This document shows positions 11,838 through 52,460 of a stretch of DNA of 64,000 bases, in pieces. This DNA comes from Salvia splendens. Lineage: Eukaryota > Streptophyta > Magnoliopsida > Lamiales > Lamiaceae. Numbering within the stretch: position 1 is the stretch's first letter; each line of letters opens with the position of its first letter. Location of the stretch: contig NC_056032.1 of NCBI RefSeq assembly GCF_004379255.2, positions 32,151,322-32,215,321 of the forward strand, given 5' to 3'. Below the pieces are notes generated by a model that was not told where the DNA came from, ran no database searches, and saw only the letters and a list, made by a program, of their open reading frames with translations. The translations under genes and the position numbers were made by a program.

Positions 11838-11896
11838 AAACAGAGAACCAAATTTGTGATAAAGCGAATTTTTGACCCTTTTTCCACCCCAAAAAA

Positions 11897-13978: not shown

Positions 13979-13984
13979 CAATCA
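13976..13984 (+). promoter_or_regulatory. Candidate stop-codon readthrough signal (UAG CAA UCA)
   Basis: The gag-protease stop is TAG followed by CAA TCA. This fits the UAG-CAR-YYA context known from tobamoviruses to promote leaky termination in plants. The frame stays open through the 33 nt to the first pol ATG (14012) and onward, so readthrough would make a Gag-Pol fusion. Motif and frame are seen directly; function is inferred. Confidence 0.6.
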
Positions 13985-14011
13985 CAGCAACCGGAGTCAG
14001 AGGCAAGCGAG

Positions 14012-17000
14012 ATGACCGAAGTCACTTCAGAGCCAAACTCAATGACCGTTCAGTTATACGAAGATGATCCATCCAGAACGGTCAAGATCGGCTTCGCAGG
14101 AACGCCTCTACTCCGGGAAAAGACCATTCAGCTCCTCAAGGAGTACAAAGATGTCTTTGCATGGTCTCCGTTGGACATGACCGGAGTGCCCCCCGAGGTA
14201 ATCACTCATCGGTTAAATATTGATCCTTCAATCCGGCCAGTAAAACAGAAGCAAAGACTCTTTGCGGCAGAAAGAAGCCAAGTCATCCATGACGAAGTCC
14301 GCCAATTGCTAAAAGCGGATGTACTATACGAGGTGAAATATCCTTCTTGGGTGGCCAATCCTGTGATGATCAAGAAAAAAGAAGGAGGATGGCGGATGTG
14401 CATAGATTTTACCGATCTAAACAAGCACTGTCCTAAAGATTGCTATCCCCTTCCGAATATAGATAAAAAAGTAGAAGCTTTGATCGGCTTCGAAATTTTC
14501 TGTTTTCTTGATTTATACAAAGGATATCACCAAGTGTTGATGGATGAGAGTGACGCTCCGAAAACAGCTTTCATTACCGATTTCGGCATTTTCGCTTATA
14601 AAAAGATGCCATTCGGTTTAAAGAATGCCGGAGCCACTTATCAAAGGATGGTAGACAAGCTTTTTCGGCACCTAATCGGAAAACAGGTTGAAGTGTATGT
14701 CGACGACATAGTTGTCAAAAGCAAAAGCACTTCGGAGTACGAAGACAACCTCAAATCCACTCTCAACGTGCTCCGAAAAGCCAACCTCAAACTCAACCCC
14801 CAAAAATGTACCTTTTTGGTAGATTCGGGAAAGTTTCTGGGTTGTTTGGTTTCAAAGGACGGACTCAAGGCGAACCCCTCAAAAGTTCAAGTCGTTCAGA
14901 ACATGGCAATGCCGAAGTCCATACATGACGTGCAAAGGCTAACCGGATGTCTAGCCGCACTGAATCGATTCCTTTCCCAAGCAGCCGAAAAGCAACTGCC
15001 GTTCTTCAAGGTGTTGAAAAAGGCACCAAAGTTCGAGTGGGGAGCCGAGCAGAAAAAGGCCTTTGACGAGCTCAAAAGTTATCTAGCCGAGCTTCCTATT
15101 CTCTCTGCTCCAACCGAAGCCGAAGTAATTTTCTTATACTTAGCGGCATCCGATCAAACCATTAGCGCGGTGCTTGTACGAGAAGAAGGCCTAAAGCAGT
15201 TTCCCATCTACTTTACAAGCCGAGCATTAAGAGGTCCAGAAACAAGGTATCAACCTCTGGAAAAAATTGCTCTGGCATTAGTAAATGCAGCAAGGAGACT
15301 GCGGCCATACTTCTATGCTCACAAGGTATGTGTCTTAACCGATCTGCCTCTTCGGCAAGTTTTGACCAAGCCAGAAGCATCAGGCAGAATCGCCAAATGG
15401 GCCATAGAGCTGGGAGAACACTCAATCGAGTACCTACCTCGGAAAGCCATCAAGGGACAAGCCTTGGCAGATTTTCTTGCAGAGGCCAAGTTCGATCAAG
15501 CAATCCCCGTCATTGCCGAACAGAAAAATTCCGCCAATGCCGAACTAGCACAGCCCTTGGAATCCGAAGTAGAGCCGCCGGACTGCTGGAGCGGATTCGT
15601 AGATGGAGCTTCAAACAAGATGGGAAGTGGAGCTGGTATTTTACTTGTCGCTCCCGATGGACACGAGGTAACCTACTCACTTCGGTTCCTATTCCCCACT
15701 ACTAATAATGAAGCCGAGTACGAAGCCCTCCTGGCCGGACTCCAGTTAGCGCAAAGTCTGCTCGTCAAATCTCTCAAAGTCCATTGTGATTCACAAGTCA
15801 TAGTAAATCACATGTTGGGTACAAGTGAAGCTCGTGACGAGAGAATGAAGAAGTATTTGGACAAAGCGCAAAGCATCAGCCGAAGTTTCTCCTATTTTCG
15901 GATAATCCGCATTCCCAGAGCGGAAAATAGCCGAGCAGATACCTTAAGTAAGTTGGCCTCAGATCCGAGCTCAAAGGCGGAAGAATTAATGCATCGAAGC
16001 ATTGATGAAGCCGAGGTACGTTCAGTATCCAGCTCGCCGAACTGGATGACGCCAATCTTGCAGTATCTGGATCAAGGACAATTGCCCGAGGATAAGAGAG
16101 AAGCTCGGAAGATCACGTGCCGAGCACTTCGGTACGAACTTCATGAAGGAGTCCTCTTTAGAAAGTCTTACCTCCAGCCGTTATTGCGGTGCGTAGGACC
16201 AGAAGAGACGGACTACATCCTCAGAGAAGTTCATGAAGGATCGTGCGGCAGCCACATCGGAGCTAGAGCTTTAGCTAAAAAAGTTCTAAGATGGGGATAT
16301 TATTGGCCAACCTTGGTACAAGAAGCAGTGCAGCTCGTCAAGACCTGCCCGAAGTGCCAAATCCATGCAAATATCCCAAGGATGCCGCAGACCGATCTAT
16401 CCACTATGCAGAGCCCTTGGCCTTTCATTCAATGGGGCATAGACATAGTGGGACCACTTCCTCAAGCTCCTCGGCAAATGAAATTCCTAATCGTTGCCGT
16501 GGACTACTTTACGAAGTGGGTGGAAGCTGAACCATTAGCTACGATAACGAGCTCGAAGGCATTGGATTTCGTCTGGAAGAACATAGTGTGCCGATTTGGC
16601 ATACCCCACATCCTCATCTCGGATAACGGGACTCAGTTCACCGACAAGACGTTCAAGAATTGGTGCCAAGAGCTGAATATTCAACAGCGGTTCACTTCGG
16701 TCTCTCATCCACAAGCAAACGGACAAACGGAGGTAACAAATCGTATCCTGGTGAAAGGGTTAAAAGCTCGGTTAGAACAAGCCAAAGGACAATGGGTAGA
16801 AAATCTCCCTCAAGTCCTATGGTCCTACCGAACTACACCCACAACCTCCAGCGGTGAAACTCCGTACAGTCTTGTGTACGGCACTGAAGCCGTGATTCCG
16901 GTGGAGATCGGCATACCCAGTCCCCGAACTCTAAACTTCTCAGCAGAAATGAATGACGACGGACTGAGAGCCGAGCTAGATCTTGCCGAAGAAAGAAGAG

Positions 17001-17275
17001 AATTGGCATGCATAAAAGCAGCCAAGTACAAGGAGCAAGTAGCCCGGTATTACAACCAAAGGGTGAAGAAGCTGCAATTTCAAGTGGGAGATCTCGTCTT
17101 GAGAAACAACGAAGTAAGCCGAGCAGAAAAGCTAGGCAAGCTCGAACCCACATGGGAAGGTCCGTATCGGGTGTCAGAAGTCCTCGGCAAAGGGTCTTAC
17201 AAATTGGCTCACATGTCAGGAGAACAGGTACCCCGAACATGGCACGTTTCCAACCTCAAAAAGTTCCATTTGTAA
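14012..17275 (+). CDS. Pol polyprotein (RT, RNase H, aRNase H, integrase) of the Tat element
   Basis: This intact 1087-aa frame starts 33 nt after, and in phase with, the gag stop. Reverse transcriptase spans about residues 70-290, with FLDLYKGYHQ and the catalytic YVDD near 229-232. A Ty3-type RNase H follows (about 345-480, with TDLPLRQVL). A second, archaeal-like RNase H lies near 525-655 (FVDGASNKMGSGAGI, EAEYEALLAGL, CDSQVIVNHM). Integrase has a zinc-binding HEGSCGSHIGARAL...CPKC motif (about 740-790) and a catalytic core with WGIDIVG, ISDNGTQF and NGQTEV holding the D-D-E residues (about 810-910). The C-terminus ends TWHVSNLKKFHL with no chromodomain. No frameshift or stop is seen, so enzyme function is plausible. 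Confidence 0.95.
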   Translation: MTEVTSEPNSMTVQLYEDDPSRTVKIGFAGTPLLREKTIQLLKEYKDVFAWSPLDMTGVPPEVITHRLNIDPSIRPVKQKQRLFAAERSQVIHDEVRQLLKADVLYEVKYPSWVANPVMIKKKEGGWRMCIDFTDLNKHCPKDCYPLPNIDKKVEALIGFEIFCFLDLYKGYHQVLMDESDAPKTAFITDFGIFAYKKMPFGLKNAGATYQRMVDKLFRHLIGKQVEVYVDDIVVKSKSTSEYEDNLKSTLNVLRKANLKLNPQKCTFLVDSGKFLGCLVSKDGLKANPSKVQVVQNMAMPKSIHDVQRLTGCLAALNRFLSQAAEKQLPFFKVLKKAPKFEWGAEQKKAFDELKSYLAELPILSAPTEAEVIFLYLAASDQTISAVLVREEGLKQFPIYFTSRALRGPETRYQPLEKIALALVNAARRLRPYFYAHKVCVLTDLPLRQVLTKPEASGRIAKWAIELGEHSIEYLPRKAIKGQALADFLAEAKFDQAIPVIAEQKNSANAELAQPLESEVEPPDCWSGFVDGASNKMGSGAGILLVAPDGHEVTYSLRFLFPTTNNEAEYEALLAGLQLAQSLLVKSLKVHCDSQVIVNHMLGTSEARDERMKKYLDKAQSISRSFSYFRIIRIPRAENSRADTLSKLASDPSSKAEELMHRSIDEAEVRSVSSSPNWMTPILQYLDQGQLPEDKREARKITCRALRYELHEGVLFRKSYLQPLLRCVGPEETDYILREVHEGSCGSHIGARALAKKVLRWGYYWPTLVQEAVQLVKTCPKCQIHANIPRMPQTDLSTMQSPWPFIQWGIDIVGPLPQAPRQMKFLIVAVDYFTKWVEAEPLATITSSKALDFVWKNIVCRFGIPHILISDNGTQFTDKTFKNWCQELNIQQRFTSVSHPQANGQTEVTNRILVKGLKARLEQAKGQWVENLPQVLWSYRTTPTTSSGETPYSLVYGTEAVIPVEIGIPSPRTLNFSAEMNDDGLRAELDLAEERRELACIKAAKYKEQVARYYNQRVKKLQFQVGDLVLRNNEVSRAEKLGKLEPTWEGPYRVSEVLGKGSYKLAHMSGEQVPRTWHVSNLKKFHL

Positions 17276-35467: not shown

Positions 35468-36967
35468 TCAAGCAACTTCTTGACCACGATTCGAACGTCG
35501 TCCACGAGAACCTGTTCGTCCTCCACCACGCCTATTATGAGTTGTGTTAATTTCAAAATTTGAACGAAGCCTCGTGTCTGCTCTCGGCCGTCTGTGAGGA
35601 ATACTCACCAGCGGATCTACTATAGCAGGCGGATCAGTAGAAATGCGTGCATTCTCACCATTGGGACTTGGATTCGAAATTAACCCACCACGAATAATAT
35701 TCATTATATCCACCAATAACTTTTCGTGAGCTTCTTTCACCATCTTTATCGCACGTGGGTCAGTTATAGCTGCATCTGCACATTTTACAAAGCTTCTTTC
35801 CATATCTTGAAACACTTTGAACTCTTCGGTCATGTGAGGATAACCACCTGCAAAAACAATACTAGAATGCGGTCTATACTCCCTTGCCCACCATCTTTTC
35901 ATGATGTAACGATCGTGTACATGATTAATATCTTTGTACACCAAGACTTTGAAGATATGAAAGCAAAATATGCCTTTAAATTTATACCTACGGCAGTTGC
36001 AGCTTATATATTCCCCAAAAGGACGATACTCAACATTGTAAGTGTATTCCTTGTGAAAAACATTCTGCACTAATCGCATCTCCTTTATCTTGCAACGATG
36101 CACACCATCTTCACCAATTGCGACATCTTCCACATTGCAACTGCTAATTTTCTTGATTTCCACTTGCAACAAGAGGCCGATGTTATGAGTGTATTCACCT
36201 AGCAATTGTTTCTCCCATTGAAAAGTTGACACCGGTTTCAGCATCACGCACTTGGACTGGTAATCAGCGTTCATCTCCTTCTGAATTTTGTTTTGAATAG
36301 CGATCTCGTATTGTTCCACAAACAGTTTCAACGTGCTCTTCGAGTTCACAAAACCATCAAAGAATGCGTGCATAGATTCACTTCGTTGGGTCTATACCAT
36401 ACCAGCCCAAAAAATATGATTCAAATAGATGGGTGCCTAATTCTCATTTTCATCAAACAAATCTTTCTGCCACCTATTGTTATGAAGATTGTGTTTAGAT
36501 AGAAAATCTATCCACCTTGACTTGAATTCTGCAATACTGAGACTATCATATATCGTTGAGTAGAAATCAGACGAACAACTACGAAAATCAGCAACACCTT
36601 TGAACTTCTGTGGAATTTTACTGGCAATATGCAATAGACAAAGTCTATGTATAGTCATTGGAAAAATTGCCTTCATGGCAATCTTTATACTCTCACATTG
36701 ATCTGTTAGCATTGTTGTAGGTTGAACACCTTTCATGGCCAGTAACCAGTTGCTAAAGAACCATTTAAATGATTCGGACTGCTCGTGACTCAATAAACCA
36801 CATCCCAGTAATATTGATTGGTTATGTTGGTTAACTCCGACAACCGTCGCCAACGGCATCTTGTATTTGTTTACAAGGTAAGTTGTATCAAAACTCACAA
36901 AATCGTGGAACTCTTCGTACGCAGCTATATTATGAGGATGTACCCACATCACATTATGCAGACGTCC
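35468..36967 (-). pseudogene. 3' part of a split FAR1-related (FRS-like) gene
   Basis: The minus-strand frame resumes at the retrotransposon junction with RLHNVMWVHPHN, followed by the MULE-transposase-like core (FVSFDTTYLVNKYKMPLATV, LLTDQCESIKIA-like blocks) and, at 36373-35468, the FAR1 middle region (MHAFFDGFVNSKSTLKLF) and a SWIM zinc finger (CNCRRYKFKGIFCFH). The tail is Arg/Gly-rich (RRGGGRTGSRGRRSNRGQ). Two in-frame TAG codons (36439-36437 and 36394-36392) interrupt it. FAR1/FRS proteins are transposase-derived transcription factors, famously in phytochrome A signalling. The 5' part lies at 45288-46117, beyond an 8.3-kb copia insertion. Pieces plus one target-site copy give 2325 nt, exactly divisible by three. 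Non-functional as it stands. Confidence 0.88.
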
Positions 36968-38432
36968 TGTTAGGATTGGTATACTGAAAAGCATATTTCG
37001 AGCATGTTGCACGGATAGAATTGCTTGTATACAATAAACTCTACAATCCACTTTTAACCCAAGGTGAGAAGAATTAATTTTATCACATTGGTGTTTGCTT
37101 ATGCATTTATAAGATGTTTCTCAAACATTTAAATGTATAAGAAGCAAATAAGTTTAATTCTTCTGCATAGTAGACTGTTCGTGAACGACGTTCACAGAAG
37201 GTGACGCAATCTGTCCTCTGTAGAAGAGAAATAGAATTTCACAACCTAGATAGGCTTTGGCTACCTATCGTGAAAGGTTGCAGTGTCAGTCCGCATGTTT
37301 CCTTACCTTAGGAAATAAACGACACTGGTGTGGTATAGCACTGAAGGATCTAACAGTTGAGATAAGTCTTTCTTGCTATTTACTGAAAGACGAGGTCTCG
37401 GTGATTGTTATTTCTTAATCATTGTTGATATAACATTGAGCATACAATATTGATTATGCACTACTTAGATTTATCAAATGGTGCGGATTTTTTGCAATCC
37501 AAGAATCCTGATAACTTGGGTAGTGGTGATTAATGTCCGGGGACAGTTTGCATTGTTATTGCAATGAATCGTGTACTGGTGAGTCCAGTTTGATAATATC
37601 CTCAAGAGGTGTTCGAAAAAGGTTTTATTACTCAGAAACCCGGCCGGTTGGAATTTATTCCAGAATAATAAATAAAGATTTTGAACTAGACAAATCTTGG
37701 AAAGAGATATTAATTAATTAAAGTCAAATAGGAGCTTAAATTAATTAATGAATATTTATATCTTAAACACGAGAAATAATAAATTAAAGAGGTAAAGTCC
37801 GGATTACTCATAATTTGGGATTGGACGGACAGTCAATATTATTTTACTATAGTGGCTGATAATAATATTATGTTGGACTTGTATTAAATTGGGGCACAAT
37901 TTAATTAGTAAAAGTCCAACAGGTTTGGCCTAAGTCCAATCTCCATGGATCCCTAATCTGGACCATAATAACTCTATATAAAAGGAGATTAGAAAGAAGA
38001 TTAAGTGGGATTAACACTAATAATTTCGTGCTCCCCTTTGGGAGTGGACGAAAAAATCGGTTCTTCACAGAACTAGAGTTCAGTCTCCTTTCTAATCAAG
38101 CCCTTTTCGATTTTGACAAGCTTTGCCCACCCAAAGGTCATTATCAGAGTTCGGGATACAGATTAGAAGGTTTGTGGATGAGTATGAAGAACATCACGTG
38201 GAGAAGGCGTAAACAATCGACGATTCTTTGGAGAATCAGATCGGTAATTCTAAACCGTAGGAATTCATGTTGTAGGTTTTAATTCCTTTTACATGAATTA
38301 TGTGCGTTCTTGGATGCAATTCTGTGTTTAACATGTAGTTAATTGATCACATAATCGGTCAAATAGATCTGTAATTATGATTTATTTGTGAATGCATAAC
38401 TTTCGCTGTGCAAGGGGCTCCAAACCCCAGCA
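36968..38432 (+). repeat. 5' LTR of the copia element in FAR1 (full length, 1465 bp)
   Basis: It starts TGTTAGGATTGGTATACTG and ends CCCCAGCA. A TATA box (CTATATAAAAGG, about 37974-37985) marks the promoter. Small open frames inside it are shared with the other LTR but encode nothing recognisable. Confidence 0.92.
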
Positions 38433-38435
38433 ATT

Positions 38436-38447
38436 GGTATCAGAGCC
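38436..38447 (+). other. Primer-binding site (initiator tRNA-Met type)
   Basis: TGGTATCAGAGC lies three bases after the LTR end. This is the complement of the 3' end of plant initiator tRNA-Met, used by most plant copia elements. Confidence 0.92.
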
Positions 38448-38784: not shown

Positions 38785-39105
38785 CGTGAACGCGCTGGAG
38801 GAAGAATCTTGACTGCAGCGTCGTCGGGCACACATCGCGATCGGCTATGTGAGCGGCACAGAGGCTGCAACCTGCAGCAGCGGCTGCTGATCGAGTGAGA
38901 GTCGGAGCAGCCCCAAAACGGTGATTGCTACAGCCTACAGCAGCGACGTTCCGATAGGCGATGTCGAGCACTCCAGCAGCAGTTGCGGTTCGAGTGGGAG
39001 CCCTTCGTGGGCAGTTCCCAGGCTCGGAGGAAGCTGTCGTGACACCAGCTGTGGTTCGAGTGGGAGCTCGTCGGTGGCGTTTCCGGCCTCGTGGTAGCAC
39101 AACTT
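38785..39105. other. GC-rich island in the leader of the copia element
   Basis: About 320 bp of markedly GC-rich sequence with repeated GTTCGAGTGGGAGC (about 38990 and 39054) and several CAGCAGC clusters lies in an otherwise AT-rich element. Open on the minus strand but with low-complexity Ala/Arg/Thr translation. It could be a captured host fragment or part of the element's leader; origin unknown. Confidence 0.5.
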
Positions 39106-39108
39106 TTC

Positions 39109-40234
39109 AAATTAGTTAGGGTTTCCCTAATCCTAGGAACTAATTTGGAGAAAATTTTGAAATTAGTTAGGGTTTCCTAACCTTTGGAAACTAATTTTAG
39201 AGTTATTTTCAAGATATAATTTAGAATAAGATTTGACATATCTTAAATGGATTATCTAAAATTTAATTTTAATTAAATTATGGATTAATTGAATATTTAT
39301 TCTTATTTTATGGATTTGGATAGATTAAATTCTATCTAAATAAATCCTAGATAGACTAGATAAATTAATTATATTTTGGATTTTATCTTTATTTTATGGA
39401 TTTAGATATATTTAATTATATCTAGAGAAATCCTAGATAAATTTGGATGAATAATTAAATTTATTTCTGTCATATGGATTTTGATAGATTTTATTCTATC
39501 TTGTTGAATTCTTGATTGACTAAGATAAATATTAATTAAGTTTATCCATATCTTGTAGATATTGATAGATCTATATCTATTTAGAATATATCTTAGTAGA
39601 TTTGGATAATTAAAAATCCATGTTTATCTTTATCTTGTGGATATTTATAGAATTAATTCTATTTAGAAAATATCCTAGTAGGTTTAGATAATTAAATGTA
39701 TCTCTATCTTATGGATATTGATAGATTTATATCTATCTAGAATCTATCTTAGAAGATTTAGATAATTGTTAATCCAGTATTGTAATTATCTTTTGGATTT
39801 AAGATAGATTTAGTTCTATCTGGTTAAATCCTAGTTGAATTAATTAATATTAATTCTAGTTTATCCTAATTTTATGGATATAAATAGATTTATTTCTATT
39901 TAGAAAATATCCTAGATAAATTTGGATAAACATAATACAAGATAATCCTAATCTAATTGGATTTTGATAAAGTTAATTTATCTAGAATAAATCCTAATAG
40001 ATATGATATATTCTGGTTTCTTATTCTAAATAATTTAAGATTTTCTTAAATCTTATAGTGATTGGATTTTATCTTATGGATTTGGATAGATTTGTTTCTA
40101 TCCTGAAATATCCTAGTACGATTTTGATAATGATAATCTAAGATTAGTCTTATCTTGAATTTAAGGATTTGATTTTATTCTTTTAAAATCTAGAATAATC
40201 CCCAAAAGGATTTAGATAGATTCAACTCTATCTA
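39109..40234 (+). repeat. Array of covarying stem-loops in the copia leader
   Basis: Two nested stem-loops come first: AAATTAGTT pairs with AACTAATTT at 39109-39146 and again at 39160-39197, each enclosing TTAGGG-TTT-CCCTAA or the shortened form. Then hairpins with mostly 6-nt loops follow about every 80 bp: 39319-39336, 39403-39424, 39483-39500, 39565-39580, 39647-39662, 39720-39737, 39802-39821, 39881-39902, 39966-39982, 40036-40055, 40084-40103, 40171-40190 and 40213-40234. Stems include GATAGA/TCTATC, AGATATA/TATATCT, AAATAGA/TCTATTT, GGATAGA/TCTATCC, GATAAA/TTTATC and GATTTTA/TAAAATC, so both sides change together. Between hairpins, AATCCTAGATA-like single-stranded phrases recur. Function unknown. 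Confidence 0.8.
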
Positions 40235-40558
40235 GATAAATCCAAAATTAATTTGGATAGTCATTATCCAAGATAAATTTATCAAATCCGAAATTCATAT
40301 TTTGGATAAGATAAGGAATTAATTATTTATTTAAATCTCCCTAAATTTATTAAATAATTTCAATAATTATCCAGTGTGATTAATTACCATGAAGTAAATG
40401 GACTTATCTATTTATTTGGTGTTAATCTGTTTTAAGTGGATTATCTGCCTTATCTGCTTGTGTGATAATTATGCAAAAATCATGTTTAAAATGACTAAGC
40501 GATAATTACAACAGTGCGTTGTATATGGTCTCCATAAATTAGACTATATATGAAGCAG

Positions 40559-40948
40559 TTTCTAATATTATCGCGACCCACCTTAGTGGGAGCAATAATC
40601 CTACGAAATAGCAAGTTCATAAGATTAGACTTCTTTATAGTAGGTTGCTTAAACTAGAAGCTTGTTTCTAATATTATCGCGACCCACCCTAGTGGGAGCC
40701 ATAATCCTACGAAATTGCAAGTTCGTATGTTTAAGCATATTTATAAGATAGCTATGGAATTTTGTTAGTGGCGTACGACCTTCCCTAGAAGGAGTATCAA
40801 AACAGAAATGAAATTCCTAGATGCAAATATTTATGGTAAATGCTTAGGCAATATTTGGCGGCCATGCCACCTTAGTGGTCTCTGGACTATCCGTCGGTAT
40901 TGTGACTAGGAATTGTTGGAATCCGAATTTGTATGACCTCCCTAGAGG
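40559..40948 (+). repeat. Five CYTA-loop hairpins just before gag in the copia element
   Basis: Hairpins: CCCAC-CTTA-GTGGG (40577-40590), CCCAC-CCTA-GTGGG (40683-40696), CCTTC-CCTA-GAAGG (40779-40792), CCAC-CTTA-GTGG (40867-40878) and CCTC-CCTA-GAGG (40937-40948). The first two lie in a ~106-bp tandem duplication starting TTTCTAATATTATCGCGAC. The others are spaced 70-100 bp. Loops are conserved while stems change on both sides. Confidence 0.8.
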
Positions 40949-41071
40949 CGTACTTATTTTGGTTTTGACAGTTGCGAGATACATACATTGTTTTGTGGTT
41001 GTTTGCAATTATGTATCAAGCATAGTATGTGATAAATAGTTTATTTCTTCTCAGCCAAATTCTTAATAATG

Positions 41072-43935
41072 TCTGCGAACCTTAAAGAAATCAAACTCGA
41101 AGGCCAAAATTATGTAGAGTGGAAATATTAAATGGATAAGATTCTCATTGCTGAAAACTTAAAGTTTGTACTCACTAATTCATGTCCTCCATTTCCTCGA
41201 TAAAATTCTACAAAGAAAGTTTGAGAATGCATTTTATGCATGCACTTGGCAAGTTCTTTGAGATAGAAGGTCAAACTACTTTCTTTTAAGTAGTAAGGCA
41301 CGTCTTGGTTTATATTGATGAAAGAGGGATATCCAATGAGGACGTTGTCCAGATTCTGTTGAAGCATCCAAAAGAGTTAGAATATTTTGAAGAATCTTCT
41401 GATTCAGTTACTCAAATAGTTTCTACACTCAGTTCATCGCCAAATATAATAGGAAGTGATTATATGAAGGTTGTTACTTAAAAGTTGGAAACCTTCTACA
41501 TGATATTCACTTTATTAGTAATAGAGGAAGATAACATGATAGATGACAAATTCGTTAAAGTTGCATCTTTCATATGTCTTAGTTCAATTGAACAGAAGAC
41601 TAGTAATGGAAAGAGGGAAGAACTGAATTGTCATCAATGCCTGCTGAAAGCAAGAAAGACAAGAAAAATTTTGGTGAAAATGCAAAGAGAATATACATTG
41701 TAAGTTGGATTGACCTCTTCTAAAGAAGGACAATGACTTAAATAACAATGCAACTTCTAAAGGATGGATCTTAATCCAGTTGGGCAGTTGTTGCAGTGGG
41801 AGCTATTTATTTATGCTCAATTTATTGTTTTGTTTTGATATTAGAGATTTTGTTTTATTGGTACAGTCTTGTTTAGAATGAATTTATATTCAGTTTCTAA
41901 ACTCATTTATGATTCTACGATGTTCAATTTCATTTTATAATGCTTGCATTATTGAGAAATGTGGATCGAATATCTATCATAGTACCATAGAAAAACAAAT
42001 TATACATCATAGTATCTAAACAATATAATTGCAAAAAGATTGAGTTTAACACGACAGTTCAACTTCTTAAACAATGAATGATAAAATATTTATGGTACTT
42101 AAACATAAGGCCAAGAAAATACTCCCTCCGTCCCGGGCTACTTGCTCATTTCCTTTTCGGCTCGGAGATTAAGGAATGGGTGTATAGGAAAGTCAAAAAT
42201 GACGGCTGTAGGTGAAATTTTTTACTAAAAATGGAGTGCAAGTAACTTGGGACGCCCAAAAAGGAAATAAGTGCGAGTAGTGCGGGACGGAGGGAGTACT
42301 TAGTAATTGTTCAAACTAATTTTGTCTTACTCAAGTGAATATCAAGATTTTAACAACTTGTTTGTTAAATAGCTTAAAGGTCAAGTAAGTCTGGTTGATG
42401 CACTATAAGTTATAATCCTTTGGTGGTTCAAGGGATTCATAATACTTATAGAGATGCAACATAGAAAGACTAGTAAGTCTCAATGGTTTACACCATAGGA
42501 GACGAGCAAATGAGTTAAGATCAGTAGTGGGAGTTAAATCCTAGTTGACTACTCCAAGCATTCTTCTAAAGAATGGGATAGTCATATAAGAAGATATTGA
42601 AGTCTCTCGAAGACAAGTTCGATAAGTGAACAGTTTGACTCAATAACACCTTATCATTGATGGGATATACGTTGGAAACAATGAGTTATACCTTAAAGAA
42701 ACTACCATAACATCAGTACCTTCTACAACACGCGAGTTGTGGACTAGAGGCAAGTCTAGTCCAGCACATCACAAGGTGTGGAGTTATTCCAACACATGTT
42801 TGGAAAAAGGTATCCAAGTAATTGGAGTTGTGTACTGAGGTATGTTTTAAGGTTGTCCCAAATGATATAAAAGGTACAAGTTCTATAATCTTCACGGCAA
42901 GATATGTGTTTGTTTACACGAATACTAGATTCTTTGATGAAGATTATGAGGAGAACTACAAGCCTAACAAACATGATAATTCTCAAGATAATGAGAATAT
43001 CTATTTTCCATCTTAACCAAGAAGTCATACCATTAGAAACTTATGCACTAAGAAAATCAACGTTTGTACCTAAGATTGTAAGAGTCGTGTCGTAGTGGGA
43101 GCGTTCTTTGCGAACATAATAAGTTCATGGGTCTAAAAGAGTCTTAAGACTCAGTCTTAGATCAACTTGAAAATAATCCCTGTAACTACAAGGACGCAAT
43201 GACTTATTCAGATAATCATTCTTGATAAGATGATAGATTCTGAAGAACAATCTTAAATAGACAAGAATGTTTGCAAGACTTGCGATACTACCCATAGACT
43301 ATTTCAGTCAGTGGGAGCTAGTGGACCTGCAAGTGTAAGTATAGATCTCAAAAGGCTAGAATAATGGCAAAGGGTTATACCCAGAGAGAATTATATTCTC
43401 GCCTGCCATTTTTGCCTAAGTCGATCTGTAAATTGTCTATTGTAGCCTACATAAATTAGGATGTATGTATTCTGATTGTCAAGAGAGTTTTCTTTAAGTA
43501 GAAGTCTTGAGGAGATCATCTGCATGGAACATCTTAATGGTTATGTAATACAGGGCAAGAAAGTTGAAAGTGCACTATATTTGGTATTCTTGGTACTCTA
43601 CGATGATGACATCTATAAAAGTTGATAAACAACTAAGAGGGTTATCTAGCGTAGGAAACTGGTCGTCTACCCAGTTTAAGGATGATAGATTTAAGATAAT
43701 CTAGTTACATTCTAAGCATCTGTGTCATTAGATTGCTAGAAAAAAAAATGTATGTTTTCTTAAAGAATCCTACATCTACACAATACTTAGACACTTTAGC
43801 ATTGAAAATTCCAAGAAAAGGTTTTTCTTTTTCTAGACGGAATTATTTTGTCTCTAGTCAAAGATTTTTCAACATTGAATGAGATCAAGAAGAATGAGAC
43901 ATGGTCCGTAATTGGAAGTCTCATATATGCTTATG
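41072..43935 (+). pseudogene. Degraded copia gag-pol remnants
   Basis: A gag-like start at 41072 (MSANLKEIKLEGQNYVEW) meets stop codons within 20 residues. Later fragments include an integrase C-terminal-like block (YVFVYTNTRFFDEDYEENYK, about 42900-42965), a degenerate RT segment (LVFLVLYDDDIYKS near 43575-43620) and the VIGSLIYA block at about 43908-43931, after which sequence jumps to the LTR. Frameshifts and stops are pervasive; no part could make a working protein. Confidence 0.75.
42122..42296. mobile_element. Stowaway-like MITE nested in the copia element
   Basis: A 175-bp element with ends CTCCCTCCGTCCCGGGCTAC and GTAGTGCGGGACGGAGGGAG, flanked by TA on both sides. The inverted ends are nearly perfect over 14 bp, so it is among the younger MITEs here and postdates the copia insertion. 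Confidence 0.88.
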
Positions 43936-43946
43936 CATTTATAAGA

Positions 43947-45287
43947 TGTTTGCTTATGCATTTATAAGATGTTTCTCAAACATTTAAATGTATATGAAGC
44001 AAATAAGTCTAATTCTTCTGCATAGTAGACTGGTCGTGAACGACGTTCACAGAAGGTGACGCAGTCGGTCCTCTGTAGAAGAGAAATAGAATTTCATAAC
44101 CTAGATAGGCTTTGGCTACCTATCGTGAAAGGTTGCAGTGTCAGTCCGCATGTTTCCTTACCTTAGGAAATAAACGACACTGGTGTGGTATAGCACTGAA
44201 GGATCTAACAGTTGAGATAAGTCTTTCTTGCTATTTACTGAAAGACGAGGTCTCGGTGATTGTTATTTCTTAATCATTGTTGATATAACATTGAGCATAC
44301 GATATTGATTATGCACTACTTTGATTTATCAAATGGTGCGGATTTTTCGCAATCCAAGAATCCTGATATCTTGGGTAGTGGTGATTAATGTCTAGATGTG
44401 CTAGTATTGTTATTGCAATGAATCGTGTACTGGGTGAGTCCAGTTTGATAATATCCTCAAGAGGTGTTCGAAAAAGGTTTTATTACTCAGAAACCCGGCC
44501 GGTTGGAATTTATTCCAGAATAATAAATAAAGATTTTGAACTAGACAACTCTTGGAAAGAGATATTAATTAATTAAAGTCAAATAGGAGCTTAAATTAAT
44601 TAATGAATATTTATATCTTAAACACGGAAAATAATAAATTAAAGAGGTAAAGTCCGGATTACTCATAATTTGGGATTGGACGGACAGTCAATATTATTTT
44701 ACTATAGTGGCTGATAATAATATTATGTTGGACTTGTATTAAATTGGGGCACAATTTAATTAGTAAAAGTCCAACAGGTTTGGCCTAAGTCCAATCTCCA
44801 TGGATCCCTAATCTGGACCATAATAACTCTATATAAAAGGAGATTAGAAAGAAGATTAAGTGGGATTAACACTAATAATTTCGTGCTCCCCTTTGGGAGT
44901 GGACGAAAAAATCGGTTCTTCACAGAACTAGAGTTCTGTCTCCTTTCTAATCAAGCCCTTTTCGATTTTGACAAGCTTTGCCCACCCAAAGGTCATTATC
45001 AGAGTTCGGGATACAGATTAGAAGGTTTGTGGATGAGTATGAAGAACATCACGTGGAGAAGGCGCAAGCAATCGACGATTCTTTGGAGAATCAGATCGGT
45101 AATTCTAAACCGTAGGAATTCATGTTTTAGGTATTAATTCCTTTTACATGAATTATGTGCGTTCTTGGATGCAATTCTGTGTTTAACATGTAGTTAATTG
45201 ATCCCATAATCGGTCAAATAGATCTGTAATTATGATTTATTTGTGAATGCATAACTTCTGTTGTGCAAGAGGCTCCAAACCCCAGCA
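43947..45287 (+). repeat. 3' LTR of the copia element, 5'-truncated
   Basis: About 1341 bp match the 5' LTR from its position 37082 onward. The first ~115 bp are missing. A ~23-bp segment (GCTTATGCATTTATAAGATG...) is present twice at the break (from 43929 and 43952). The LTR ends CCCCAGCA and abuts CATCC and the FAR1 5' part. A TATA box matches that in the 5' LTR. Confidence 0.9.
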
Positions 45288-46117
45288 CATCCTTCATCGA
45301 CAAAATCCATAATGTGAAAAAAGTTTTTATCTTGCAGTTGCATTCTCAAAAACAGCCCGTGTATAGTTTTGGCATCCCTCTCTCCAAGTCTCAACCTTCT
45401 CCTTTTATCTATGAAGTTCTTACAGACTCGCTCAGTGACACCTAGATTCTGAGGACCTCCGACCATAACTTCTAGAGTCCTCACGTTTTTACAAGTCCTA
45501 TAGCCTGCAATATCTCGACTTTCCAGCAGGTGTTTCATGTGCAAACTTAACTCTCGATTACCTGGCATAAACATTGACAATTGCGGCTCAAGACTGTGAT
45601 TGTGATTCAACTCAACATTCGACACAATCACTTTACCATTAGTCTTCACAATGAAATTAACACGAGCCGGACACTGCGTTTGTCTGGTAAACTTCATAAT
45701 TACATCCTTAGGCTTTCGCCATTTGAGGCAAGCAAGCACGTAATACTTAGACGACGAGCTACGTATTGCAACAGAAAAGCCTTGCAGCTTCGCATAATCT
45801 TGATAGGCTTTCATAAGGCTCTCTTTTGAATCATATTCCATTCCCTTCATAGGAGCCATGTTGGCTATAAGATCTTCACCCGAAACATCATCATCATCAT
45901 CATCGCCGTCTACACCATTAGAATCTAGGATCACAGTAGCTTCTTCTTCTCTGTTGTTATTTTCGTCATCTTCTTCTATCACATCATCTCCTTCTTCATC
46001 ATTGTTGTTACCTTCCTCTTCCACTGTCACATCATATTCTTCTTCACCATTGTTGTTATCCTCTTCCGATAACTCATGATTGTCGCCAAAAATTTCCTCA
46101 TATATCTCGTTCATCAT
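45288..46117 (-). pseudogene. 5' part of the split FAR1-related gene
   Basis: The probable start is 46117 (MMNEIYEEIFGD), preceded by TGTTTAG, which could be a 3' splice site of an intron in the leader. The N-terminal ~90 residues are very acidic (EEDNNNGEEEYDVTVEEEG, then a DDDDDD run). The FAR1 DNA-binding domain follows (MEYDSKESLMKAYQDYAKLQ, CLKWRKPKD, CPARVNF, ELNHNHSLEP), a WRKY/GCM1-like zinc fold with C-C-H-H ligands. It breaks off after NFFHIMDFVDEG, where the copia element begins; the chain resumes at RLHNV at 36967. No stop occurs in this half. Confidence 0.87.
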
Positions 46118-47316
46118 ACCTAAACACAGGATCTGATCAAACTCGCACCTAAGCCAACATTGGAGTAAATGCAAATATGTTATCAACAAGAAAAAGACAA
46201 TCTGACAACAAGAAGAGAGAAAGAAACAAAATACACCTATAGTTAGTAAAAACTAGTCAGTTCAGGCTTCGGGTTTTAATCTGTTATATGTGATCAATGC
46301 ATAGAAATACCAATTTAAGCAGACAATAAATAATGATTGTACGTAGTGAAAGCAAGTTTTCAAGAGGATAAGTGATTGAACACATTGAGGTGAGGAGAAA
46401 TGCTTGACCATGAACATGTATACGAAGCCTACAACACATATAAATAAGAGCATAGGGGTGGTACCTTTGATGTTTTCTTATATCGTGGCACCAATGATTT
46501 GGGTGAACAAGGCTGAAGATGCCGCAACCTGCGACGCAGAGGGCCGGACGGTGGAGGCTAGTCGACGGAGACGGTGGAGGCTGGTCGACGGATGGAGGAG
46601 TGAAGATATTTCTTTAGTTGTAAATCTTTATTTTTGATTGAGTGTATTAGGTAAAAGAGTGTAATTTGATATGAGTTTACTTTTGATAATAATTTGATTG
46701 ATGTATATTTAGATAAAAGATAGTAATTTGATATGAATTGCCTTTCCTTTTATGATTAATTGATATATATTTATTTATTCAATTATTATTTAATTCAAAA
46801 TAAGGGTATATTAGTCCATATTATAATTTGGCTTATGGCAAATTGACATAGGGGTATTATGGCTTGGAGACATTATGTCTCTAAATAATCACTCCACCTG
46901 AAACTAGTGTTACTTTATTTCCTCTACTACTTTACTCTTTTTTATTTCTATATTTTATTTTATCTTCGTTTAACTTATTTAACACAATTTCTTAATCTCC
47001 GTGCCCAAATGAAATTAAATGACCTAACTTAATTGGGATGGAGGAGTATCCATTTTTGCTATTTCGGTACATATGCGATTCAAAATTCTATTTTTTCATA
47101 TTTCGAATAAGTGAACCTTACATTCAACTAAATCATTTTACTTGTACTCTACTACTATAAAGACATAGAGTATAAAATTCATGTTTCACTCGCCATTTAT
47201 TTTCATAAAGTTAAAACAAATTTTAAACCCGTAGCTGAGTTATTTTAACTGACAAATATATGTAATTAGATGTTACTAGTTCTTTCATTCTTTTGACTAA
47301 TAAAGTTAAGCTGTCA
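46118..47316. other. Upstream region of the FAR1-like gene and gene-free DNA
   Basis: A GC-richer stretch (46510-46600) has a 20-bp direct duplication around GGTGGAGGCT(A/G)GTCGACGGA. A tandem pair at 46660-46740 shares (G/A)TAATTTGATATGA. No gene is recognised. This may include the FAR1-like promoter and first non-coding exon. Confidence 0.45.
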
Positions 47317-47321
47317 TGTCA

Positions 47322-47559
47322 TGTTAAATGGTTCAGGAAACATATTAAGAGAGAAAGCTTAGGAGATTAATAAGTTTATATGGAATTGAGTGAGTTTTTC
47401 ATTGAGTATTACTCCCTTTAGATAGGGCATAGGGTATGATGTACATGGTATGATTTTTCCTATATAAGGAATAATCAAATCTCCTAATTAATACAAAATA
47501 TTCACGCATTCCTTGATTAGAGTAATTGATTCTAAAGAAATCTTGTCTTATTTCTAACA
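47322..47559 (-). repeat. 3' LTR of the minus-strand copia element
   Basis: 238 bp. It lacks the small CAAGCCT-like insertion seen in the partner LTR. On the minus strand a purine-rich GAGAAGGAG tract (about 47561-47569) precedes it as polypurine tract. Confidence 0.9.
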
Positions 47560-50500
47560 CTCCTTCTCAAATTGAATGGTGTGATCTCCAACACTCAATT
47601 TGCATAGTACTTCTTCAAAGCTTCTGGCATTAACTGTTTTGGTCAGTATATCAGCAAGCTGGTCTTCAGATCTGACAAATGGAAACTCCACAATGCCATT
47701 TTCAATGTTCTCCTTAATAAAGTGTCTATCTACCTCCACATGCTTAGTCTTGTCATGTTGGACTGGATTCTCCGAGATGCTTATAGCAGCTTTATTGTCA
47801 CAGTATAATTGCCATTTGTTGGGAGGCAAGTTCATTTCTCCCAACAATCTTCTCAGCCATAGTATTTCAGTCAAAGCACTTTTAATCCCACGAAACTCTG
47901 CCTCTGCACTTGATAAGGTCATCACCTTTTGCTTTTTACTCATCCAAGTCATTAAATTCCCACCAACGAAGGTGAAATAACCTGCTGTAGACTTCCTGTC
48001 GTTGGGATTTTCTGCCCAATCAGCATCGGTGAAGCCATGAACCTCAAGATGTCCATTCTTCGAGAACATCACTCCATGCCCAGTAGTTCCTTTTAAGTAC
48101 CGACAAATCCTGAGTGCTGCCTCCATATGATCTGCATGTGGCTTGTGCATAAATTGACTCACAATTCCAACTGCATAAGCAATATCAGGTCTAGTGTGAG
48201 AGAGATAAATGAGTTTTCCGACTAACCATTGTTATCGACTTCGATCAGCCAGCTCAGCTTCATCCTTGATCTGCAATCTGTGGTTTACTGCCATAGGTGT
48301 GTCTAGTAGACCTGTTTCTGCCAGTATGTATAGAATGTATTTTCTCTGCCTTAGGAAGATTCCATTCAGTGATCTGAGAACCCCAATGCCTAGAATGTAT
48401 TTTAGATCTCCCAAGTCTTTCACCTCAAACTTTTGGAACAGATTCTTCTTCAAACTTTCAATCTCTTGTAAGTCATCACCAGTAACAATCATATCATCCA
48501 CATATATAATTAAACAAGTGATCTTATCTCATCGCTTCTTCAAGAACAGTGTATGATCTGAGTTGCTCTGCTTATACACATAACCTTTCATTGCTCCAGT
48601 AAATCTTTCAAACCACACTCTTGAGGATTGTTTTAGCCCGTACAATGTTTTCTTCAAGCGACACCCTTCTTCTATCTTGAAGTCTGTAGTAAATCCTGGA
48701 GGTGCTTTCATGTAAACTTCTTGTTCTTTCTTTAGCTCGCCATGAAGGAAGGCATTTGTGACATCAAACTGATGCAGATGTCAGTCTTTGTTTGCTGCTA
48801 CTGACAATAGCACGCGAACGGTTTTCATCTTAGCCACTGGAGAGAAAGTTTGTGTGTACCCCTTTGCCACGAGTCGGGCTTTATATCTCTCAATCGAGCC
48901 ATCAGATCTTCTCTTAATAGTAAACACCCAACGACACCCCACTGGTCGTTTTTTTGTTGGTACAACACACTTCTCCCATGTTGCATTTCGAATCAATGCA
49001 TATATTTCTTTCTTCATAGCCTCCCTCCAGTGCTTGTGTCTCATTGCTTCCTCCCATGATTGTGGGATTTCTTCTTCCTCGTACAAAGCATCATCGAATG
49101 CTTGAGCCATCTCCGAAAATGTCCCTTTACCAGATTCACCACTGAATATCGTGCTTTTCTGTTAATCTTCTCGGGTATATATATCTTTGGTGGGACTCCT
49201 CTGTTTGATCTAGGTGGAAGTCTATATCTCTTTGGTGGGACTCCTCTGTTTGATCTAGGTGGAAGTATGTATCCACCCGTATTAGGATCTATTCCTTCTA
49301 CTTCCACGGAGGCATCACTTTCTCCTTCCCTATTGTCAGTATCTTCCAGAACCACAATATCAGTAGAAACAACATTTGTATCCATAGGGATATGAGTACT
49401 TACATTGGATATCCGCATCGGAGAAATAGTCGAAGCATTGTCACTTTCCACGATGGATTTAACTACATCAGGGACCTGCTCAGCGGTACTGCATGCGTAC
49501 TGCCTTCTCTGTTAGGTCCGCCACAGGACTGCTTGGCATTGACATTGATATCCAGCTTAGTGAGTCAGTAGTACTACTCTCCCCCTGAATACTAAGGTGG
49601 ATAAAAAATACTCGGTTTTAAGGAAGTTGCAGTTCATTGTGGTGAACATGTGACTGGTTTTAGGGTATACCCCTTCTGATTAACTCCGTAACCAACAAAC
49701 ACACATTTAATGGCACGAGGAGACAATTTGGTTCTTTCATGTTTTGGGATATGAACAAAAACAAAGTATCCGAAGATACGAGGTTCTAGAGTCAAGGAAG
49801 GAAGAATTTTTATTAGGGTGGATAGAACTTGTAACGGGGTTTGGTATTTGAGGATACTAGTGGGTAAACGGCTTAAGAGATAGGCTGATGTGGCAATAGC
49901 TTCAGGCCAGAAATGTTTTGGGGTTTTTGAATCAATGAGCATTGATCGGGTCATTTCGAGAAGAGTTCGATTTTTCCTCTCGGCTACGCCATTTTGTTCG
50001 GGAGTATAAGCACAAGTAGTTTGGTGTATGAGGCATTTTTCTTGGAAGAATTGTTTCATGCTAGAATTAACGAACTCTCCCTCATTATCTAACCTAAGGA
50101 TTTTTATGGTTTTCTGGAATGTTATAGAAGGAAGAGAAATGTGTAAAGACTTCAGATTTTTGTTTCATGAAATATACCCAAGTCATGCGTGTACAATCAT
50201 CGACAAATACTAAGTAGTATCTAAAACCTTGTCTGCTAGTAATTGGTGCGGACCCCATATGTCAAAATGTACTAAGGAAAATATAGTCTCAATGCAAGTA
50301 TTATTTAAAGGATAAGAGGTTCGATGACTTTTAGCTAAAAACAGTTTTCGCAATACATGTCATGCTTAGGAACAATATCAGGAAACAACATTTTTAAATA
50401 ACCCAAGGAATGATGCCCTAGACGTCGATACCAAAGACAAGCTTTCCGATCAGCAGACCCGTGAGTTAACATGGCAGTTCCTTTTTGAACTATCTCATCC

Positions 50501-52347
50501 ACGTAGTACAGTCCATCACGTTCAGTGCCACACCTAATAATCTTCACTGTTCGGATATCCTGCAACAAACAAAAGTGTGGTTGCATTAGTAATGTACAGT
50601 TCAATTCTTTTGTGGCATGGCTGATCGATAACAGTTTATGAGACATAGACGGGATATATAGACAGTTTGATAATTGCAGAGTAGGAGATATTTTCACAGT
50701 TCCAGCCCCCTCTATAACAGTAAATTCTCCATTAGCCGTCCGAATGTGGGATTTCTGAGGCTTTTGCATTTCTGTAAGGTCTGATGCATCATAGGTTATT
50801 GTGTCGGTGGCCCCACAGTCAAATATCCATTTAACATTTTTCCCTATATCCCCATACATATGACATACAGCATCAAGTTTTTTGTAGTGGATGAAATTGA
50901 TTTTTACATAAAATCTAGGCATTTGTGGATTTATTTGGAGTTTTAAGGGTCAATTTTAACTGAGCAGAAAAACATGAGCTAGTATGCAATTTATCTAGGA
51001 CATGAGGTATATTTTTGGATTTAGGAAGAGTTTGGGGGTCCATAATAAAAGTCCCCCCAAACCCTAAGTTACCTTCTGCCCTAGTATCCGTTGTTTCCTG
51101 CTCCACGCTCAAGTCCTCTGCCCAATTCTGGATGACGGTTCCTCCGACGAAATTGGCTGCTCCGGTTGGATTTGTCAACTGAGCAGCTCCGCCGCCCCGA
51201 GTCTGTGCGACCTCTCGGTTGCTCTCGGTGGTGGCGGGGTGATTTCCCCCTTTGCCTAGTTGTCCTACGTCAGCAGCGGCGGCACGGCCGTCGCGGTTCC
51301 AGGGTGTGTGAGCTGCCGGTGGTGCAGATGGTTGCTTGCCGTGTTTTTCCTCCCACCAATCTGGATATCCGACCAATTCAAAGCAAGATTCCTTGGTGTG
51401 TCTCTTTCTCTTACAATGTGAACAAACCAATTTTGATTTATCTTCTTCATCGTTTCGTCGGTTCCAGCCTCCGCCGCCGTGATTGTTGCCACCACGAGAG
51501 CCTCCACCGCCGCTGCTGGGTTGGTTCGGCCTTCCTCGGACGGTGAACCCAGCTCCGATGCCGTCTGCAGTGATTCCAGTTTCTGGATGCAGAACCTGAT
51601 TCCGCTTTTCCTCCCGCTTTACCAGGTTGTAAGCGTGGTCAACCTAGGAAGTGGCTCCATTTTAACGATTTCCCTCTTGGTTGATTCATACTTACTGTCG
51701 ATTGCAATTAGAAATTGAAAAAGTCTGTGTTCTTGGATGAAATTATCATGAATTTCTATGTCCTCCGGATACTTCATTGGGTTTGGTCGTTTTTCATCAA
51801 TTGACATCCACAGATCTTGTAGAGTGCTCTATGTCTCTTCCAGTGATTGATTCCCCTGTTTCACCATGCTGGCCTTTATTTGCAGGTCGTATATTTGGAG
51901 TTTGTCTCCTCCACTCCCGTATGTGATGACCAATGCATCCCAAATATGTTTCGCCGTCGGCTGCTTTGAAACTCGGCTGACCAGTCGTGGTTCAATGTTT
52001 TGTATGAGCCAAGTGAACACGCAATGATCGGCTTGTTGCCACTGCAGAAAGGTTGGGTCGGTTCTTGGCGGGGAAGGCGGCACTTCGGTTATGTGAGAGA
52101 CCATTCCCCGGCCTCTAATCGTTGTTTGGACCAATACAGCCCATACGGGATAATTTTCCCCATTCAATTTGTTCCCTCCGTTGTGGAGAGGCTGTGTATC
52201 AATTTTGTATGGTGTGGGTGTTTCTGGTGGGTTATTTGGTGGTTGATTCATGGCAAAACTATTGCGCATGAAGTTGGCAAATTTTCTGGCAAACTCGTCT
52301 GCCATGGCTGAATTTGTGGTTTCGGGTAAAATATTTTCTTCTGACAT
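47554..52347 (-). pseudogene. Copia gag-pol polyprotein relic
   Basis: Gag (52347-51620) has LNGENYPVWAVLVQTTIRGR and a stop after NQSLEET. The nucleocapsid CCHC knuckle CSHCKRKRHTKESC is at about 51420. The protease has FDCGATDTIT (about 50822), where D-S/T-G is expected. The integrase zinc region has WYRRLGHHSLGYL (about 50430); the core/C-terminal part is at 50059-49634 (YTPEQNGVAERKNRTLLEMT). RT is at 49110-48232 ([43 protein letters not shown]). RNase H is at 48162-47554 (DADWAENPNDRKSTAGY, CDNKAAISISENPVQHDKTK). Several frame breaks and stops separate the blocks, so it cannot act autonomously. Confidence 0.88.
49179..49268 (-). repeat. In-frame 45-bp tandem duplication in the copia polyprotein
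   Basis: Two copies of a 45-bp unit (CTTTGGTGGGACTCCTCTG..., at 49185 and 49230) encode a doubled LPPRSNRGVPPK motif in the linker between integrase and reverse transcriptase. The phase is preserved (15 codons). Confidence 0.85.
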
Positions 52348-52460
52348 TGGCGCTACTTGCGCATGTTCAAGGTGCGGAAATGGAAATGGAAAAGGAAAAG
52401 AACAAGAGGGCCGAGAATGGTATCACGGACTATGACGATACCTATTCTGAGTCCTAACCT

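Follow-up and report, generated by a model that had tools for sequence, protein, structure and literature searches.

We analysed a window of 64,000 nt from Salvia splendens (GCF_004379255.2, NC_056032.1:32,151,322-32,215,321, forward strand), which carries on its + strand an LTR retrotransposon with a leader rich in hairpins; features of the element are given on this strand throughout. The 5' LTR (TGTTAGG...CAGCA) spans 36968-38432. Its start at 36968 is probable, being placed by the TG and by the adjoining near target duplication of 5 bp (CGTCC at 36963-36967 and CATCC at 45288-45292, with one mismatch). The 3' LTR (43947-45287) lacks its first ~124 bp, and internal sequence runs directly into it. 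Over the segment that the two LTRs have in common (37092-38432 and 43947-45287), they form a direct repeat of 1344 columns with 97.5% identity (K2P 0.024). Long terminal repeats, TG...CA ends and a target duplication, albeit with its one mismatch, are those of an LTR retrotransposon. A MULE-transposase frame and a FAR1-domain frame (36437-36967 and 45288-46252, - strand) flank the element and were apparently a single gene that its insertion split.

The primer-binding site, TATCAGAGC at 38438-38446, follows ATTGG (38433-38437) and is of the initiator Met tRNA type. Such a site directly 3' of the 5' LTR (TGGTATCAGAGCC) is found in Ty1/copia elements, although it is not exclusive to copia. A gag remnant lies at 41069-41290, with an in-frame stop at codon 21 (TAA, 41129). 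The start of gag scored 15 bits against Pfam Retrotran_gag_3 (E 0.022), below the cut-off of 24.1. No pol domain was found in the 10 pieces run against Pfam (nine of the 45 listed open frames plus the gag start), and pieces of the window's second copia element gave a best match no better than E 0.3. The name copia is likely to be right, though domain order gives no proof of it. This copy is deleted and broken; the start of the 3' LTR and the sequence preceding it are missing.

We compared the gag region with that of five other alignable copies. The stop at 41129 is common to four of these five (five of six rows with the window), and the fifth has different stops in every frame. In the first 360 letters, each of the six rows has 3-12 stops per frame. 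Because four of the five other copies carry the window's first gag stop, the family looks non-autonomous; judged on these six rows only, copies have spread with a common broken frame, as in LARD-like elements.

Several other features were noted. The leader includes a GC-rich block at 38800-39100 (60% GC at 38800-38999) with a repeated GGTTCGAGTGGGAGC motif. Inside the element, at 42117-42301, is a MITE with TACTCCCTCCGT ends, which we take to be Stowaway-like; its matches to the miRNA families MIR1120 and MIR1862 fall short of the gathering scores. With Rfam 15, the leader gave no match up to E 1; the only matches were to MITE-type miRNAs (42119-42299), apart from one weak match at 41688-41758. 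Elsewhere in the window, a second copia-type element (47554-52422, - strand) has longer open frames with matches to Pol_BBD, gag_pre-integrs and SH3_retrovirus, and two long adjoining open frames of 700 and 1098 aa (11876-17275, + strand) read like gypsy-type gag and pol.

Hairpins of the leader

An array of 12 hairpins, array A (U1-U9 and U11-U13), lies in the leader 3' of the primer-binding site and 5' of the gag remnant. In each unit an inner stem, usually GATAGA/TCTATC and closed by a loop of 5-6 nt, sits within an outer stem, GGATWT/AWATCC. The units lie at 39312-39347 (U1), 39398-39433 (U2, inner stem GATATA/TATATC), 39476-39511 (U3), 39557-39593 (U4), 39639-39675 (U5), 39713-39749 (U6), 39795-39831 (U7), 39876-39912 (U8, AATAGA/TCTATT), 39959-39994 (U9, GATAAA/TTTATC), 40078-40113 (U11, GGATAGA/TCTATCC), 40165-40202 (U12) and 40208-40243 (U13). 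U12 combines an outer stem of the usual kind with a differing inner stem, GATTTTA/TAAAATC. An irregular hairpin, U10, was placed at 40036-40055 (TAAGATTT/AAATCTTA, loop TCTT), with an overlapping alternative at 40033-40051.

An earlier, sequence-only reading of this DNA had described about a dozen hairpins recurring every ~80 bp between the primer-binding site and gag, mostly with 6-nt loops. The stems that it quoted are present, the number holds and 10 of the 11 regular units have a 6-nt loop; the even spacing applies only to U1-U8 (74-86 bp) and is lost beyond U8. It had the inner stems right, left the outer stem unnamed, and missed two hairpins upstream and five long ones downstream of array A.

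The two upstream hairpins, each of ~50 nt, stand in tandem at 39104-39202 (AAATTAGTT...AACTAATTT; fold of 39101-39202, z -3.4). The five downstream hairpins form array B, just 5' of gag (40556-40984); they are about 50-70 nt long, and at the tip of every one a CYTA loop is closed by a stem of 4-5 bp. They are B1 (40556-40622; apex CCCAC-CTTA-GTGGG at 40577-40590; z -3.3), its close duplicate B2 (40662-40728; CCCAC-CCTA-GTGGG at 40683-40696; z -2.5), B3 (40748-40822; CCTTC-CCTA-GAAGG at 40779-40792; z -3.8), B4 (40840-40912; CCAC-CTTA-GTGG at 40867-40878; z -2.0) and B5 (40906-40984; CCTC-CCTA-GAGG at 40937-40948; z -5.2). Counted from the loop, stem pairs two and three show two-sided differences among B1-B5 (A-T or T-A, and C-G or T-A, respectively), in a comparison that includes the near-duplicates B1 and B2.

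By eye, single units of array A seemed to hold a further hairpin in their other half; the RNAalifold consensus of nine units contained the known hairpin only, and the candidate was rejected as a conserved feature. In the minimum-energy fold of array A, other pairs are preferred to several of the outer stems.

Comparison with chance

Dinucleotide shuffling of 39300-40290 did not reproduce the stems of array A. In this region 12 stems reach 7 bp or more with loops of 3-10 nt, compared with a mean of 2.77 and a maximum of 6 in 200 shuffles, and 11 reach 6 bp or more with a 6-nt loop, compared with a mean of 1.50 and a maximum of 5. Neither count was matched by any of the 200 shuffles, one of the two controls on which the sequence-only reading had staked its proposal. 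When the window was cut into 64 tiles of 1 kb and stems that have at least 7 bp and a loop of 4-6 nt were counted, the two array tiles ranked first and second, while the most AT-rich tile (79% AT) had one such stem.

A covariance model, R1, was built from eight array A units. It recovered the left-out units U13 (E 1.2e-9), U9 (2.7e-7) and U7 (7e-7), and U12 weakly (0.0076); U10 gave no match up to E 5. Outside the array the best match had E 0.096. The minus strand of the array gave weaker matches (E 0.0003 at best), which reflect the near-symmetry of the hairpins.

For array B, stems of at least 6 bp were not in excess (2, against a mean of 1.23; reached by 72 of 200 shuffles). The CYTA apices, a motif chosen after looking at the sequence, number five, against a mean of 0.03 and a maximum of 1 in 2000 shuffles. 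Low folding energy is not specific to the arrays: z was -3.7 for one stretch of the LTR, -3.2 for the upper leader and -3.5 for the coding remnant read on the minus strand.

Pairing between the arms of the window's units

Pair counts within the window were made on a hand alignment set by structure, since MAFFT put U7 and U12 in the wrong place and displaced an arm of U9. U10 and U12, whose inner stems do not align, were left out of these counts, of the arm permutation and of the simulation. Across 11 units and 12 pairs, 129 of 132 cells were paired (125 Watson-Crick and 4 G-U); the other three held no A-C. Five two-sided pair types were seen among the 11 units, which bears out the earlier statement that the two sides of the stems change together.

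When whole 3' arms were dealt anew among the units, the observed pairing was rarely reached (p 0.0005 for inner and p 0.0056 for outer stems). Outer arms paired in 64 of 66 cases within their own unit and in 53 of 60 each with the next and with the previous unit. We further simulated neutral drift on the unit tree with per-pair rates fitted to the data. In 4000 runs the observed number of paired cells was never attained, the Watson-Crick count was attained in 6 and the number of two-sided types in 2. Neutral drift on the unit tree is thus rejected.

Other copies in the host genome

With array A as a DNA query against the host genome, 40 of 1132 candidates were scored, and the other copies were 93-96% identical. 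The pattern GGATTTNGATAGANNNNNNTCTATC, with at most one mismatch, occurs 1055 times, against once for its reversed control. Allowing for a few pattern matches per copy, we estimate that the genome holds hundreds of copies. Sixty leaders were fetched; after two that did not span the array and four near-duplicates had been dropped, 55 rows remained, including the window. R1 gave 287 matches at E <= 0.001 in 25 of the 60 fetched loci, four of them, by our reading, running opposite to the direction of the array.

Relatives were also sought outside this genome. The primer-site pattern occurred in at least 120 plus at least 118 stretches; among the 238 loci listed, 99 matches lie shortly after CA, and in none of these 99 does the preceding 25-mer recur downstream. 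Viral contigs gave no match to one exact array B motif and no relative of two copia protein pieces.

In the 55 leaders, where U12 was included, 95.9% of the array A stem cells pair, compared with 22-57% when partners were slid by 1-3 columns. The number of paired cells, 7512, exceeds the mean (7455) and the maximum (7469) of 300 shuffles of the 3' letters among rows. For U1, only 23 of 50 rows retain some stem of at least six Watson-Crick pairs, and for U11 only 31 of 55; the other units have one in 43 to 54 of 54 or 55 rows, U12 among them (54 of 55 rows, with differing loops).

Subfamilies swap base pairs on both sides of the stem. In U2, 43 of the 55 rows have T-A at the pair 39409/39418 and 11 have G-C; in U3, 44 rows have G-C at 39483/39500 and 9 have T-G. 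Five two-sided pair types occur in at least two rows (50 cells), compared with 0-2 types (0-9 cells) with slid partners. The sequence-only reading had taken a lack of covarying pairs across family members as an outcome that would tell against it, and the aligned members show two-sided pair changes. On a tree from non-stem columns, 18 branches with changes on both sides end paired, 6 break the pair and 1 stays unpaired; the slid-partner controls gave 0-6 branches that go from paired to paired. Since identical swaps recur on several branches, the 18 changes are not independent events. The swaps in U1, U2, U3 and U11 are accompanied by 4-8 further differences within the unit, so some of them may come from exchange of whole units.

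On the 5' side of the array, the best alignment of most copies to the window begins at or near 39284, so copies seem to differ in how many hairpin units they have at this end. Because most alignments begin at U1, its columns may compare different units. Single changes that keep the pair were in excess on internal branches when U1 was included (22:21 vs 66:154, p 0.013); without U1 the excess was gone (8:16 vs 58:146).

Shared and singleton variants

Singleton variants were taken as mostly post-insertion, and variants found in at least four rows as having arisen during movement of the family. In the 55 leaders without U1, stems had shared and singleton variants at 13:116, as against 24:60 for loops and spacers (p 0.00075). 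With U1 included, the 288 stem sites had 19 shared variants and the 150 sites in loops and spacers had 26 (p 0.0008), while singletons were about equally dense in both (122 and 66, respectively; p 0.76).

As the earlier tree used loops and not stems, it could favour the stem result, and the comparison was repeated on a tree from positions outside the hairpins. Without U1, internal to terminal changes were 41:253 in stems and 57:180 in loops and spacers (p 0.0034), with 0.96 terminal changes per site in stems and 1.30 in loops and spacers. On the earlier tree, positions between hairpins were intermediate (119:427). A depletion of shared but not of singleton variants in stems is as expected if selection acted during movement. 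This contrast, our strongest evidence, suggests that the paired positions were of consequence for copies on the move but not for those already resident. Together with the arm permutation and the unit-tree simulation, the tests on the 55 leaders favour selection on pairing, in line with the earlier argument that drift would break the stems and that selection on structure is likely.

The apices of array B carry no shared variants and 30 singletons, against 38:132 in their flanks (p 0.0017). Within the family, array B shows conservation but no covariation across the 55 leaders; it is arguably more signal-like than array A.

RNA or DNA

A wobble test for the strand on which pairing matters was null, with G-U:A-C at 3:5 on internal branches without U1. 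By variant class, the same ratio was 31:27 among singletons, 14:9 among variants in 2-3 rows and 6:2 among those in four or more. In z-scores, folds of the minus strand of array A lie farther from shuffles than those of the plus strand.

Discussion

The hairpins exceed chance, their arms pair best with their own partners, shared variants are depleted in the stems and subfamilies differ on both sides of a pair; for these reasons the hairpin structure is very probably under selection. What it does is less certain. On a finely balanced judgement, the leader consists of two hairpin arrays that were kept by selection on base pairing in the mobile phase and that act as cis signals.

Acting in the genomic RNA, the hairpins would be repeated cis signals that most likely work through binding of Gag at many sites (packaging and dimerisation), with the proteins supplied in trans, because the compared copies have a broken gag and yet have spread. 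If the broken gag holds family-wide, copies would move with borrowed proteins, and cis-acting sequence would then be what selection can still see. Array B, with a constant CYTA loop on differing stems just 5' of gag, could make a specific contact, and array A, with constant geometry and changing loops, could serve as a multivalent scaffold. The leader 5' of gag is the usual site of packaging and dimerisation signals in retroelements. We rank packaging first for this reason and because such signals are described for BARE2 in the part of the account available (PMC3735527); even so, a packaging role is a tentative assignment that falls just short of that balance. More doubtful is the bolder form in which the leader is a multivalent packaging device, whose dozen geometry-conserved and five apex-conserved hairpins would capture the Gag of another element and out-compete the helper's RNA, the number of units being an evolving dose. 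We place translation or export next, followed by a mutational origin and then by a role of the DNA.

Leader structure might instead serve ribosome shunting, reinitiation, export or splicing of the gag transcript. Plant introns are AT-rich, and the array resembles them in this; the leader also contains 44 ATGs. Structured 5' leaders of plant pararetroviruses serve translation and export, according to the portions of the sources at hand (PMC5902531, PMC12786077). The compared copies, however, have a broken gag, so control of gag translation should no longer be selected, and neither a splice donor nor an acceptor was found in the leader among the two simple forms sought. We consider such a role unlikely.

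Similarly unlikely, and next in rank, is a functionless origin by mutation, in which a tandem array of short inverted repeats is kept symmetrical by template switching (quasi-palindrome correction) in the course of reverse transcription or repair, and also through exchange of units. The several linked differences that come with pair swaps in one unit would fit such a process, as would the break of most alignments around 39284, suggestive of a varying number of units, and the wholly different inner stem of U12. It would not, however, lead one to expect that shared variants are scarcer in stems than in loops while singletons are equal, or that the array B apices lack any shared variant, and the five hairpins of array B, with B1/B2 set apart, form no regular tandem array.

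A role at the DNA level, with the inverted repeats extruding as cruciforms or being bound as dyad motifs by a host or element protein (in chromatin, replication or integration), appears quite improbable. The wobble test gave RNA no preference, folds of the minus strand likewise lie far from shuffles, and DNA dyad repeats of Sireviruses have been interpreted as transcriptional motifs in the available part of their description (PMC2829016). Against this, array A keeps no fixed DNA word, its loops varying and its stems swapping bases, and singletons are not depleted in stems, so that there is no sign of protection of resident copies. That AT-rich, low-complexity DNA simply yields many short stems can be dismissed, since array A, though 79% A+T, has stem counts that no shuffle and no tile of like AT content reached, and the arm permutation and unit-tree simulation contradict it.

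Returning to packaging as the preferred role, how plant LTR retrotransposons choose RNA for packaging is little known, and the accessible part of the BARE account says as much of packaged RNA outside BARE (PMC3735527). With an estimated hundreds of copies, conserved pairing and a near-neutral internal control in the singletons, the family offers a target for probing and binding experiments. It also gives a view of selection on nucleic-acid structure in which the compared copies no longer code for Gag.

Relation to known systems

The sequence-only reading knew of no such array, and this agrees with our word searches of the open-licence literature (titles and the starts of abstracts, which is weak evidence), where we found, among the papers listed, no leader hairpin array in a plant LTR element. 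Packaging leaders of retroviruses and RNA viruses consist of a few unlike hairpins, whereas here about twelve near-equal units are joined by five with a common apex. In retroviruses such as MMTV and in RNA viruses, cis signals bound by Gag or coat protein select the genomic RNA, as far as the parts available of two accounts describe it (PMC8096270, PMC6466141).

BARE2, a barley Ty1/copia subfamily that cannot make Gag, is described as trans-packaged and as keeping conserved dimerisation and packaging signals (PMC3735527). The likeness to the present family lies in a Gag-less copia-type subfamily, matched here by copies with a broken gag; the portion available of the BARE1/BARE2 description includes no repeated hairpin array, and the two are set apart by description alone (PMC3735527). 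At the junction of the 5' LTR with the internal region, the Sirevirus sequence CA/ATTGG-TATCAGAGC, as given in the part of the source at hand, is identical letter for letter to ours (PMC2829016). The palindromic repeats of Sireviruses are placed there in the 3' LTR and next to env, unlike the hairpin array in the leader here (PMC2829016).

The element can also be likened, by description, to LARDs, since it looks non-autonomous too, but it retains a gag remnant and has its arrays in the leader. LARDs have a long internal region and move in trans. They are counted among the non-autonomous LTR elements in the accessible part of a source that also treats tandem repeats in the 3' UTR of Tat LTR elements as sources of satellites (PMC10794571). 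Those repeats are likewise tandem and in a non-coding part of an LTR element, and paired-stem conservation goes unmentioned in that part of the text (PMC10794571). The leader described here is of a known kind, the structured retroelement leader, and what is unusual about it is its repeated layout.
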